From contig NZ_WHJH01000014.1 of NCBI RefSeq assembly GCF_011682145.1, forward strand, positions 62,001-126,000: a stretch of 64,000 nucleotides of DNA, in the 5' to 3' direction. The notes beneath the pieces were generated by a model. The model ran no database searches. It was not told where the DNA came from and was given only the letters and a program-made list of their open reading frames with translations. This document shows, piece by piece, positions 463-43,215 of the stretch. Source of the DNA: Massilia mucilaginosa. GTDB taxonomy: Bacteria > Pseudomonadota > Gammaproteobacteria > Burkholderiales > Burkholderiaceae_D. Made by a program: the position numbers and the translations under genes. How positions within the stretch are numbered: position 1 is the first letter of the stretch; each line of letters opens with the position of its first letter.

Positions 463-2130
463 TTAGCGGCCCTTCCATACTGCGCTGGTCAGGGTACCGT
501 TGGCATCGCCGTCGAGTTCCCAGGAGAACGCGCCACGCAGGCCCTGATCGCGCACATACTTCATCTTCACATCGATGGTGGCCGGATCGTCATAGCTCCA
601 CCATTCGCTGTTCGTGGTCAGCAGGTACAACTGCTTGGTCACCGGATGAGTCCAGCGGGTGCCGGCCTTATTGATGAGAACCTTGTAGTCGTCGATGCCG
701 GATTCGTACTGGCCGGCTGCCGGACCGCTTGCTGCCTGGTACAAACCGTCGCCGCGCGGGCCGGGGCTCACGCCTTTCCAGCCGCGGCCGTAGAACGGCA
801 CGCCCAGCAGGATTTTGTTCTTCGGCATGCCGGCTGCGATCAGCGTCTTGATCGCGTCGTCGGTGTTGTACTTGATCAGGTTGCCGGTCGCCGGGTCGGC
901 AGGGTCACGGTAAAGTGGCGCATGGAAATTAGTAGTGTTTTCCCATCCACCATGGAAGTCGTACGTCATCACGTTGACCCAGTCCATGTACTGACTATAC
1001 AGCGCAGGTTCGGTCTGGGCAATCTTCTCGCCGCCGGCGCCGATGGCGGCCGTCAGCGGATAGCGTTTGCCGTCGAGCTTGCCCTGTGCGTCGAGCTGGG
1101 CGCGGAACTCGGCCATCAGCAAGGTGAAGTTGCGCTTGTCGTTGACCGTGTCGACCGTGTTGTACGACTGGCCGCCACCGCCCGGGTATTCCCAGTCGAT
1201 ATCGATGCCGTCGAACACGCCCTTGGCCGCGCCCGGTCCGCCGCGTCCATCCTGCACCGGCAAGTCGCCGGCAATGAATTGCTTGATGCACGAGCGCGCC
1301 AGCTGCTTGCGCAGGGCGTCGGTCTTGGCGGCCGCCGAGAAGTAGCGCGACCAGCTCCAGCCGCCCAGCGAAATGAATACTTTCAGGTTCGGGTGGGCCG
1401 CTTTCAGCAGTTTCAGCTGGGCGAAGTTGCCGGTCAGCTTGGCATCCCAAGGGATGACCTTGCCGTCGACGGTGCGCGCAGGCGAGCGCTGGTAATCGGC
1501 ATAGGCATCGCCGCCGGTGCCGGCGTCGGCTGGCGGCGGCGTGGTGTTGCCGGTTTCGGCCTTGGTCACCATGTCGCATTCGTAGCCGCCGTTTTTGGCG
1601 TACACATTGCCGAAGGCATAGTTGATGAAGGTGAGCTGGTCAGCCACGCTGGTCGGCACGCCGTTCACTGGTGTCTTGGTGGTATGGATGTCGGCCACTT
1701 CGTAGCCACGGCCGTACACGCCCCACTGCGCGAAGTAGGAACCGATTTCACGTCCGCCGACCGGGGTGGGGGTCGGCGTCGGTGGCGTTGGGGTCGGCGG
1801 CGTCGGTGTTGGCGGCGTCGGTGTCGGGGTCGGCGGGGTAGGCGTCGGCGTCGGGGTATCGGTGGTCAGTTCCCACGGTCCCCATTGTTCTGTGCCGGGG
1901 ATATTGTTCTGGGTCCACCACTTGGCTTTGTAGACCTTGCCCTGGTAGACCGCGCAATGACCGGCGGTGTAGATGGCGCTCGCATTCCAGTCGGCGCAGG
2001 CGACCACGGCCGCAGCCGTTTTGGTCATGCTGCCCTGCATGTCGGATTTGTCGCCGCCGCTGCCGCCGCACGCGGCGAGCATGCCGCCGATGAGCGCGAT
2101 CAGCAGGCTGCTCTTTGTGTTGTATTGCAT
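463..2130 (-). CDS. GH18 chitinase, lipoprotein with chitin-binding module
   Basis: Secreted or surface-anchored endochitinase of glycoside hydrolase family 18, hydrolysing beta-1,4-GlcNAc bonds. The order of parts is: signal peptide with lipobox LAAC (Cys21), a CBM5/12-type chitin-binding module at about residues 47-88 (WNASAIYTAG ... YKAKWWTQNNIPG ... WGPWEL), a Pro/Thr linker at about 91-123, then the GH18 barrel to residue 555. The catalytic motif DxxDxDxE is intact (FDGIDIDWE, Asp307 to Glu314, Glu being the proton donor), and the barrel motif SLGGWSWS is present at about 254. The ATG used is preceded by AAGGAG at good spacing; an in-frame start 15 codons upstream lacks such a site. It stands alone, just downstream of a 117-bp palindromic element that may lie in its promoter region or 5' leader. 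Confidence 0.93.
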   Translation of the reverse strand: MQYNTKSSLLIALIGGMLAACGGSGGDKSDMQGSMTKTAAAVVACADWNASAIYTAGHCAVYQGKVYKAKWWTQNNIPGTEQWGPWELTTDTPTPTPTPPTPTPTPPTPTPPTPTPPTPTPTPVGGREIGSYFAQWGVYGRGYEVADIHTTKTPVNGVPTSVADQLTFINYAFGNVYAKNGGYECDMVTKAETGNTTPPPADAGTGGDAYADYQRSPARTVDGKVIPWDAKLTGNFAQLKLLKAAHPNLKVFISLGGWSWSRYFSAAAKTDALRKQLARSCIKQFIAGDLPVQDGRGGPGAAKGVFDGIDIDWEYPGGGGQSYNTVDTVNDKRNFTLLMAEFRAQLDAQGKLDGKRYPLTAAIGAGGEKIAQTEPALYSQYMDWVNVMTYDFHGGWENTTNFHAPLYRDPADPATGNLIKYNTDDAIKTLIAAGMPKNKILLGVPFYGRGWKGVSPGPRGDGLYQAASGPAAGQYESGIDDYKVLINKAGTRWTHPVTKQLYLLTTNSEWWSYDDPATIDVKMKYVRDQGLRGAFSWELDGDANGTLTSAVWKGR

Positions 2131-42397: not shown

Positions 42398-42524
42398 AAA
42401 AATGACAAACCCGCCTGCGGGCGGGTTGGTCGGGAATGTGGGTGACCCCGGGGAGCCGGGGCCACGATCGGACCTAGTGTCATCACCAGTAAGGGTGGCT
42501 GGGAGAGGACATTCCTAGGGCTGC
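42398..42524 (-). ncRNA. candidate structured small RNA upstream of hemA
   Basis: About 127 nt with its own promoter and intrinsic terminator. The transcript would fold with an outer helix GGAAUGU / ACAUUCC (7 bp), an internal hairpin with CCAGCCACC facing GGUGAU, a CCCCGG-CUC-CCGGGG type hairpin, and a terminator stem AACCCGCC-CGCA-GGCGGGTT flanked by a GAC/GTC pair and followed by TTTTT. No good open frame starts inside it. It lacks the 4.5S RNA core (no GGAAGGAAGCAGC type motif) and the tmRNA ends. No known family was recognised. Transcript ends are estimates. Confidence 0.6.
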
Positions 42525-42530
42525 CAGCAA

Positions 42531-42558
42531 ATTATAGCACTCGGTGCTCAAAAATCAA
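42531..42558 (-). promoter_or_regulatory. sigma-70 promoter of the candidate small RNA
   Basis: On the minus strand TTGATT (-35) and a perfect TATAAT (-10) are separated by 16 nt, with transcription expected to start near 42524. It is the most consensus-like -10 I noticed in the window. It overlaps the leader of the divergent Abi-family gene. Confidence 0.65.
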
Positions 42559-42570
42559 GCAGGTGTCAAG

Positions 42571-43215
42571 ATGAAATGGACCGACCTTGAGCGACATTTT
42601 TCGCCTGCCCGGCTGGGCCGTTACCGAGCCTTGTGCGCAGGTGACGACGTCAAGGCCGCATCCGTGTATGTGAACAATATGCTGCTGGCGGGAGCGATGA
42701 TGCCCATGCTGAGTGTGCTGGAAATTGCACTCCGAAACGGTATCCATCGTCGCATGTCCGCGCTGTCTCAACGGCCCGATTGGTGGGAGGCGTTGGCGGG
42801 CGATCCGGCCTTTGCGCGACAGACCAAAGAGGTCACTGGCGCGAAGGAACGGCTGCAACGGCGCGCTGAAGCGGCCACGTCCGACAAGATTATCGCGGAG
42901 TTGACCTTCGGTTTTTGGAGCTCGCTGTTCAATGGCGGCTTTACACCTATCGTATGGAAAGATTTGCGCCTGGTTTTCCCCCGCTGTCCGAAGGCGCAGC
43001 GCAAGCGCAATGCCGTCTCATCGGCGCTGAACCAGATGCGCGACTTGCGCAATCGGGTATTCCACCATGAGCCACTCTTATGGTTGCACCCCGACCTGCT
43101 CGGTTTGCACGCCAGGGGGACCGAAGTGATCGGCTGGATCGATCCTCAACTGGTGTTATGGCTGGCCAGCTACGATCCCCTGCCGGCCACCTGGACCACT
43201 TGCCGGCCGCGTTAG
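42571..43215 (+). CDS. Abi-family protein (abortive infection type, HEPN-like)
   Basis: 214 residues. The family pattern is ERHFSPARLGRYRALC near the start, MLSVLEIALRNGIHRRMS, WW-type segment DWWEAL, FGFWSSLFN and VWKDLRLVFP, then LNQMRDLRNRVFHHEPLL. The last segment has an R-x4-H motif (Arg160 to His165) like the active site of HEPN RNases. Abi_2-type proteins can cause abortive phage infection, but many chromosomal members have no demonstrated role. Single gene, AGGTG before the ATG, divergent from the small RNA promoter. Confidence 0.82.
   Translation: MKWTDLERHFSPARLGRYRALCAGDDVKAASVYVNNMLLAGAMMPMLSVLEIALRNGIHRRMSALSQRPDWWEALAGDPAFARQTKEVTGAKERLQRRAEAATSDKIIAELTFGFWSSLFNGGFTPIVWKDLRLVFPRCPKAQRKRNAVSSALNQMRDLRNRVFHHEPLLWLHPDLLGLHARGTEVIGWIDPQLVLWLASYDPLPATWTTCRPR

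Follow-up and report, generated by a model that had tools for sequence, protein, structure and literature searches.

The interval between hemA and an Abi-family gene in the window (the whole 64,000-nt stretch of Massilia mucilaginosa DNA that was analyzed) appears to hold a structured small RNA, and it raises the question of whether such an RNA gene is real and, if so, which of its two neighbors it serves. We propose that the RNA is probably the divergent RNA antitoxin of an AbiF-like toxin, and that the RNA and the Abi gene together would form a single mobile toxin-antitoxin or abortive-infection module.

The ncRNA gene is about 125 nt long and lies on the minus strand at 42398–42524, as delimited by its blastn relatives and by its match to R1, a covariance model of the RNA built from 17 training sequences. 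Its 5' end near 42524 is taken from the –10 box and its 3' end is placed in the T run; the window RNA, itself a training sequence, matches the whole of R1 (42527–42398) with 120.7 bits. The preliminary description had read a TTGATT-N16-TATAAT promoter, a structured region of about 127 nt and an intrinsic terminator with a T run at this site, ahead of a co-directional hemA and divergently oriented to the Abi gene, and each of these elements stands. Specifically, the sigma-70 promoter (minus strand, 42558–42531) has 10 of 12 consensus matches and a TG before the –10 box, and the promoter scan found one such site where 0.1 is expected in shuffles. The 127-nt stretch folds with –53.9 kcal/mol (z –4.0) and is more stable than all 200 dinucleotide shuffles with which it was compared. 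It ends in the intrinsic terminator (GACCAACCCGCC/GGCGGGUUUGUC, then ATTTTT; minus strand, 42398–42431), whose hairpin (42431–42404) is present in the computed fold and for which the terminator scan returned two overlapping forms against 0.5 expected. The hemA gene follows 177 bp downstream on the same strand, the Abi gene starts 47 bp from the RNA 5' end in the opposite direction, and no part of the RNA falls within the Abi frame. Beyond the window, we used R2, a model of the core alone with 20 training sequences (including those of the window and of genomes G392, G462 and G499); a –10-like hexamer (at least 4 of 6 positions) precedes 40 of 41 R2 matches, at an identical distance in 37, these counts including many near copies and having no chance control. 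The small RNA gene is real, and it is presumably expressed.

The RNA is organized around a core domain, GCAGCCCUAGG...GUCCUCUCCCAG...CUGGUGAUGACACUAGGU (42472–42524), that is formed by the helices P1 (CCUAG/CUAGG; 42519–42515 with 42477–42473) and P2 (GUC-UC-CCAG/CUGG-GA-GAC; 42510–42499 with 42489–42479) and has a nearly invariant internal loop in which CUCUCC stands opposite GUGAUGA. The GGCCC hairpin P3 (GUGGCCCCGG/CCGGGGUCAC; 42442–42465), which is present in the computed fold, and the terminator hairpin follow, all on the minus strand. The core is identical at 52 of 52 positions in three other Massilia and at 51 of 52 in a fourth, while the promoter and the 3' parts are variable. When P1, P2, P3 and the terminator are taken together, 97.1% of the cells are paired and 10 pairs are changed on both sides, and neither value was reached in any of 500 shuffles. 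Here P3 (helix 3; 90.8% of cells paired) shows two-sided changes in three of its seven pairs and the terminator (helix 4) in five of 12, and P1 and P2 each in a single pair, a number that a wider set of sequences raises. Indeed, among 30 distinct core sequences 97.1% of the cells are paired (0/500 shuffles as high; slid controls at most 41.4%), with two-sided changes in six of 14 pairs (4/500) and in 29 cells (0/500). That alignment was fitted to the structure, whereas a MAFFT alignment of 20 sequences is independent of it and gives 96.8% paired (slid controls at most 50.9%), six two-sided pairs (2/500) and 25 cells (0/500). Further pair types do not exceed the shuffles, which were as high in 480/500 cases for the 20 sequences and 457/500 for the 30, and hardly do so in the four-helix set (47/500). 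The proposed outer helix GGAAUGU/ACAUUCC is another matter: it can be written in the window sequence, but it is missing from the minimum-energy fold, and over 17 relatives only 50.4% of its cells are paired against a shuffled mean of 48.7% and slid controls of 25.0–58.1%. Hence the earlier model of four helices that included this outer helix is wrong, and the compensatory changes that were to be looked for in its helices are found in P1, P2, P3 and the terminator instead. Conservation and compensatory changes support a structured small RNA that falls outside the Rfam families.

That no known RNA family fits had also been claimed, and for Rfam this is confirmed by the covariance-model search, in which no family reaches its gathering score in the window. 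Between 42200 and 42700 the only matches up to E 10 are to P9 (17.2 of 43 bits) and GlsR20 (13.8 of 100 bits), far below threshold. The family of most relevance to what follows, abiF (RF03085; 37-bit threshold), has no match at E up to 10 in this interval, in 27 loci mostly of distant relatives or in eight loci of close relatives, and its sole match in the whole genome (19.3 bits) is on another contig. Over the window and 96 loci, R1 gives 24 true matches at 78–149 bits, many of them training sequences or copies of these, and all others are at or below 25.5 bits.

By BLAST and covariance models together, the RNA was found in 64 plasmid records, many of them near copies, and in 15 whole genomes. 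A blastn search of 72,556 plasmid records gave a match in 60, and the models added four more beside Abi genes (L163–L165 and L221). The plasmid hosts are Aeromonas, Pseudomonas, Xanthomonas, Klebsiella, Enterobacter, Edwardsiella, Pantoea and Escherichia. Resistance genes are present on some of these RNA-bearing plasmids as well. The gene table shows no feature under the plasmid matches, but that table holds no RNA genes at all. All 18 of the 60 plasmid loci that were compared with R1 match it, L101 as a broken copy that has lost the 5' half of the RNA (78 bits) and is missed by R2; a more distant plasmid RNA, at L167, scores 53.4 bits. Among 17 genomes of the genus, blastn detects the RNA in five, the window's own included, and in each of them it precedes hemA; a 31-nt match in a further genome (L006, G015) sits in an open stretch of unrelated sequence and was dismissed as chance. 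Over 245 genomes R1 gives nine scores of at least 109 bits, with the rest at or below 37.4, and adds four Oxalobacteraceae genomes to the blastn finds (G256, G177, G155 and G142). In 369 Gammaproteobacteria its only believable matches are the window's own and G392 (38.1 bits), the core of which aligns with compensatory changes; other R1 matches of 24–38 bits were judged as a group and treated as terminator-driven noise. In the same 369 genomes R2 recovers the window, G392, G462 and G499, all of which trained it, and a doubtful match in G386 (27.7 bits). Its independent finds are G809, G756 and G763 among 250 Burkholderiales (76, 58 and 41 bits) and the viral contig L172 (49 bits). A phage origin was considered and rejected, as blastn of 50,697 phage records gave no match and the exact core was not found in viral contigs; two IMG/VR contigs do hold an RNA copy, one beside a broken Abi gene (L171) and the other beside an intact relative (L172).

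The surroundings of some plasmid copies deserve separate mention. In the plasmids of rep_cluster_573 the RNA stands without an Abi gene and faces a convergent gene (L088:10175–11056), with a same-sized gene in the same position in L087, L091 and L096. The L088 protein, the only one of these that was scanned, belongs to the AbiTii family (Pfam AbiTii, E 9.5e-42), so that a second type of abortive-infection gene adjoins the RNA there. On two large Aeromonas plasmids there is an additional RNA copy next to which, on visual inspection, no more than a stub of the Abi start is left (L094:3355–4160 and L095:3355–4160). These extra copies lie about 660 bp from cas6f and a short type I-F CRISPR array, possibly a CRISPR-associated transposon, and the spacers beside them bear no resemblance to the RNA by eye. 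A Xanthomonas citri plasmid carries a C4 antisense RNA (RF01695, 67.8 bits; L089:17901–17993) about 8 kb from the RNA.

Which neighbor the RNA serves had been left as a choice among hemA, Abi and targets in trans. A role as leader or regulator of hemA would suit its place upstream of that gene on the same strand, which recurs in four other RNA-bearing Massilia; yet the RNA has its own terminator, and G256, G177, G155 and G142 have no hemA within 1.5 kb of it. The comparison of hemA upstream regions among relatives, which the preliminary description had suggested as a check, also turned out against such a role. Specifically, by covariance-model search the RNA is missing at 77 of 77 other hemA loci of related species (best score 19.8 bits in 72 of them and 13.4 bits in the other five). 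In four other species examined (L010, L011, L015 and L019) a response-regulator gene lies directly upstream of hemA, and the RNA-Abi module has therefore been inserted between the two in a single subclade of Massilia. The window hemA protein shares 99% identity with its counterparts in M. atriviolacea, M. frigida and M. rubra, in keeping with a Massilia genome. We regard a function in hemA expression as very improbable.

In contrast to hemA, the Abi gene accompanies the RNA on unrelated replicons. An Abi relative of at least 58% identity is present in 41 plasmid records, which are redundant (about nine identity groups, with many near-identical plasmids), and in 40 of the 41 the putative toxin gene has a divergent ncRNA next to it. 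In 34 of these the RNA place that was listed is the adjacent one, at a gap of 31–61 bp. In L220 and L222 the adjacent divergent RNA is the second copy of the record, and in L163–L165 and L221 it is divergent and seen only by the model, that of L221 being truncated next to an IS. An IS also interrupts one of the 40 Abi genes (L100), and the sole exception (L166) has an Abi gene without its first 55 residues and no RNA; an intact Abi gene without the RNA was not seen among these close relatives. The spacing from the RNA core to the Abi start is 36–48 nt in 14 of 15 loci. Pairwise comparison of nine loci, extending over at most 2.8 kb in the Abi direction and 1.5 kb in the opposite one, found shared blocks in 35 of 36 pairs (the window and L163 share none at E 1e-5), all of them within –673 to +136 around the RNA core. 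The shared DNA is a two-gene cassette of about 810 bp that contains Abi and the RNA and nothing else. Moreover, RNA and Abi distances are correlated (Mantel r 0.86, n = 15 loci, 0/5000 permutations as high), which indicates that the two travel together and does not alone show that they interact. The RNA is still present beside Abi relatives of about 35% (L155 and L172) and 45% identity (L167), and beside one with 50% identity to the L105 protein (L219). In L219 (748–1558) the layout is different, with the Abi frame (748–1509, plus strand) and the RNA (1558–1434, minus strand) tail to tail in an overlap of 76 nt. Because the RNA and the Abi gene form one mobile unit while the other hemA loci lack the RNA, we assign the RNA to Abi and not to hemA, so that of the neighbors named at the outset only Abi is retained.

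The Abi gene (plus strand, 42571–43215) encodes a 214-aa HEPN protein resembling AbiF, AbiD and PD-T4-5, and the protein is a probable toxin. Its RNRVFH sequence is the HEPN R-N-x3-H motif, in which R160, N161 and H165 are invariant in 16 of 16 and in 19 of 19 aligned members, in agreement with the R-[NHD]-x3-H pattern. The PADLOC PD-T4-5 profile (PDLC04038) matches all 16 aligned members at E ≤0.01 and the window protein at E 2.3e-15, with partial coverage, as only positions 15–205 of its 309 are matched; PADLOC AbiD profiles match 14 of the 16. Pfam Abi_2 (PF07751) remains below its cut-off of 25.6 bits, with 17.5 bits for the window protein and 24.0 for the best of nine scanned proteins, and HEPN_Swt1 is likewise below cut-off for the Abi protein. 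The AlphaFold model (mean pLDDT 92, pTM 0.87) has as its top PDB fold match 8vz6_A, from the PbAbiF dimer bound to its ncRNA (rank 1 of 182, probability 0.99), and the other 49 matches listed have probabilities of 0.13 or less. It should be noted that the match to 8vz6 is weak (E 0.14, TM 0.45, rmsd 8.2, 12% identity) and that nothing in this fold search of the PDB passes E 0.001. When the Abi profile was searched against PDB sequences, it retrieved only designed ankyrin-repeat and fusion proteins, which were judged spurious. Overall, the protein is HEPN RNase-like and related to AbiF and PD-T4-5.

The converse of the linkage does not hold, since the RNA is often found alone. Of the 60 plasmid records with a blastn match, 24 have no Abi gene of at least 58% identity, and tblastn found none in the eight of these that were searched. 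Among the 15 RNA-bearing genomes, six have an unbroken adjacent Abi frame (G000, G014, G256, G142, G462 and G763) and five have no Abi within 1.5 kb (G007, G003, G177, G392 and G809). The remaining four have damaged Abi genes, which are frameshifted in G012, truncated in G155, interrupted by one in-frame TAG in G499 and reduced to a possible 55-residue remnant (E 0.002) in G756. In G012 (L003:1680–2322) the frameshift precedes the HEPN motif and the core of the adjacent RNA is unchanged. With the exception of L101, the lone copies retain the –10 box and the core. Such a pattern is expected if the toxin can be lost with impunity but the RNA cannot, or if a lone RNA is of use by itself, and because the lone copies keep promoter and core the RNA may have a further role beyond Abi.

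We now put forward a mechanism for the module that draws on the closest studied systems. According to the published accounts, RCd22 neutralizes the AbiF protein of Clostridioides difficile by direct binding (PMC12373285), PbAbiF is inhibited by its RNA, AbiFr, as stated in a review (PMC12737573), and PD-T4-5 is a plasmid-borne, toxin-antitoxin-like distant relative of AbiF/D that provides abortive-infection defense (Vassallo et al. 2022, PMC9519451). By analogy, the RNA would be transcribed from a promoter and stopped at a terminator of its own, and would fold into the two-helix core (P1-P2) with its nearly invariant internal loop, plus the P3 hairpin. The core would then bind the Abi protein and hold off its RNase activity. 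Once the RNA is no longer supplied, either because the plasmid is lost or because a phage disturbs transcription or RNA turnover in the host, the toxin would be set free and growth would stop. In this scheme we infer direct binding, toxicity, neutralization and the trigger from the AbiF precedents. The purpose of the module is likely to be anti-phage abortive infection, because PD-T4-5 was selected as an anti-phage gene giving this type of defense.

The linkage and the conserved internal loop would fit any obligate RNA partner equally well, and the RNA might instead activate the HEPN protein, as a cofactor or sensor, the two forming an RNP effector that recognizes phage or phage-altered RNA. 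That the best fold match is an AbiF-ncRNA complex, from a family said in two sources to be ancestral to the RNA-guided Cas13 (PMC12373285, PMC12737573), agrees with such a role. However, the common lone RNAs with intact promoter and core suit an antidote better, and in the closest studied systems, as far as those accounts describe them, the RNA is an inhibitor; we consider an activating RNA unlikely. A little less likely again is control of Abi expression by the RNA or by its promoter alone, either through interference between divergent promoters or through antisense pairing with the Abi mRNA in a type I-like manner. The short gap between the RNA 5' end and the Abi start in the window and the constancy of the spacing among loci are what such control would lead one to expect, and in L219 antisense contact would be possible where the last 76 nt of the RNA lie opposite the end of the Abi frame. 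Yet the RNA of the window does not touch the Abi frame, the core is conserved, with paired changes, far beyond the needs of a promoter, and the L219 pair has been kept without a shared leader, the overlap there involving the terminator end and not the core.

A host-directed sRNA acting in trans, with the Abi gene as a passenger, would explain the persistence of lone RNAs on plasmids and chromosomes, and the nearly invariant CUCUCC could be seen as part of a C/U-rich stretch (CCUCUCCC) directed against ribosome-binding sites. That stretch lies inside the covarying helix and internal loop, however, and the presence of the RNA at all but one of the 41 close Abi genes is not something that a passenger model predicts, and we regard this reading as improbable. 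The divergent RNA antitoxin hence remains our preferred interpretation of the locus.

Relatives of the Abi gene occur in 600 plasmid records (E ≤1e-3), and most of the distant ones that were examined do not carry this RNA. Among 32 loci with distant relatives, 27 have no R2 match and the other five (L155, L156, L167, L171 and L172) do, four of them being training sequences. On visual inspection, a promoter and a hairpin RNA of another sequence stand divergent to the gene at some distant relatives and are absent at others. In L178, L179, L168, L169, L170 and L193 an element of this kind lies just upstream of Abi, with a promoter and a G+C-rich helix enclosing a small hairpin, followed directly by a T run in L178 and L179; these elements have no R2 match and no Rfam family above threshold. 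An Escherichia coli relative (23% identity), which is not established as PD-T4-5, has a different divergent promoter-hairpin-terminator element upstream by eye, also without an R2 match. The window's own genome contains a second Abi paralogue (L162, contig C389; 26% identity) accompanied by a divergent element that has a promoter-like part and a hairpin but differs in sequence, possibly a second toxin-RNA pair. In a fold-energy test, from which six loci with R2 matches or their near copies were omitted, the regions beside 23 distant relatives have a mean z of –2.1 against –0.2 in 92 control windows (p 4e-6), the controls being mostly coding DNA and several of the 23 near copies. Thirteen of the 23 divergent regions are at z ≤–1.5, nothing is seen at loci such as L177, L181, L195 and L196, and z is only –0.2 and –0.8 at two loci where the R2 match is real. 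Fold energy is therefore only suggestive of structured divergent RNAs beside the distant relatives.

Taking these observations together with the lone copies, we offer a broader and tentative reading, which we hold to be possible but considerably less secure than the antitoxin proposal itself. The RNA would be a separate antitoxin family for AbiF/PD-T4-5-like HEPN toxins that acts in trans from a divergent promoter, the intact lone copies would be selected as anti-addiction RNAs, and the divergent RNAs at distant Abi_2 genes would be further specificities of one large class. If the anti-addiction part is correct, a lone RNA would be a free antidote that lets a replicon or host shed or displace toxin-bearing plasmids, and the number of lone copies makes this testable. 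If the whole is correct, this class belongs with the protein lineage presumed to have given rise to Cas13. Irrespective of this, the close relatives of this PD-T4-5-like Abi gene come with an RNA outside Rfam, the RNA makes it possible to test directly how AbiF/PD-T4-5-like HEPN proteins are restrained, and covariance models are available for its annotation.

The proposed logic, an RNA antitoxin that neutralizes an RNase toxin, is that of the type III systems (ToxIN, CptIN and TenpIN). Type III systems generally carry their RNA as tandem repeats in the upstream part of the toxin operon, and their toxin is not a HEPN protein; the present module is set apart by a single divergent RNA unit and a HEPN protein. 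It is closer to RCd22-AbiFCd of C. difficile and to PbAbiF-AbiFr (8vz6), in which the Abi protein is likewise a HEPN protein with R-N-x3-H, 8vz6 being the best fold match. As in C. difficile, a small ncRNA (98–132 nt there) with its own promoter and terminator adjoins the gene (PMC12373285). The C. difficile ncRNA, however, is co-directional and upstream, and the toxin is reached by terminator read-through, whereas here the RNA is divergent in all 34 listed cases and in six more, is tail to tail in L219 and is not the 5' leader of the toxin mRNA. It also differs from abiF RF03085, which has no match here, in having one core domain and P3 and not the two abiF motifs, and the Abi protein, at 214 aa and below the Pfam Abi_2 cut-off, is shorter than PbAbiF (297 aa in chain 8vz6_A). 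The protein resembles the plasmid-borne PD-T4-5 (PMC9519451) in that the PADLOC profile matches every aligned member, and it differs in the limited stretch of the profile that is covered and in its RNA partner, the term "non-coding RNA" not being found in the main text of that paper. No title or abstract opening retrieved on AbiF, Abi_2 or PD-T4-5 with ncRNA describes this RNA, most subscription journals lying outside the search. The essence of the comparison is that an AbiF protein with an RNA antitoxin is already known and that this module differs from it in its RNA family, its divergent arrangement, the shortness of its protein and the abundance of lone RNAs. A structurally distinct RNA partner is added to the protein family from which the RNA-guided Cas13 is thought to have evolved.
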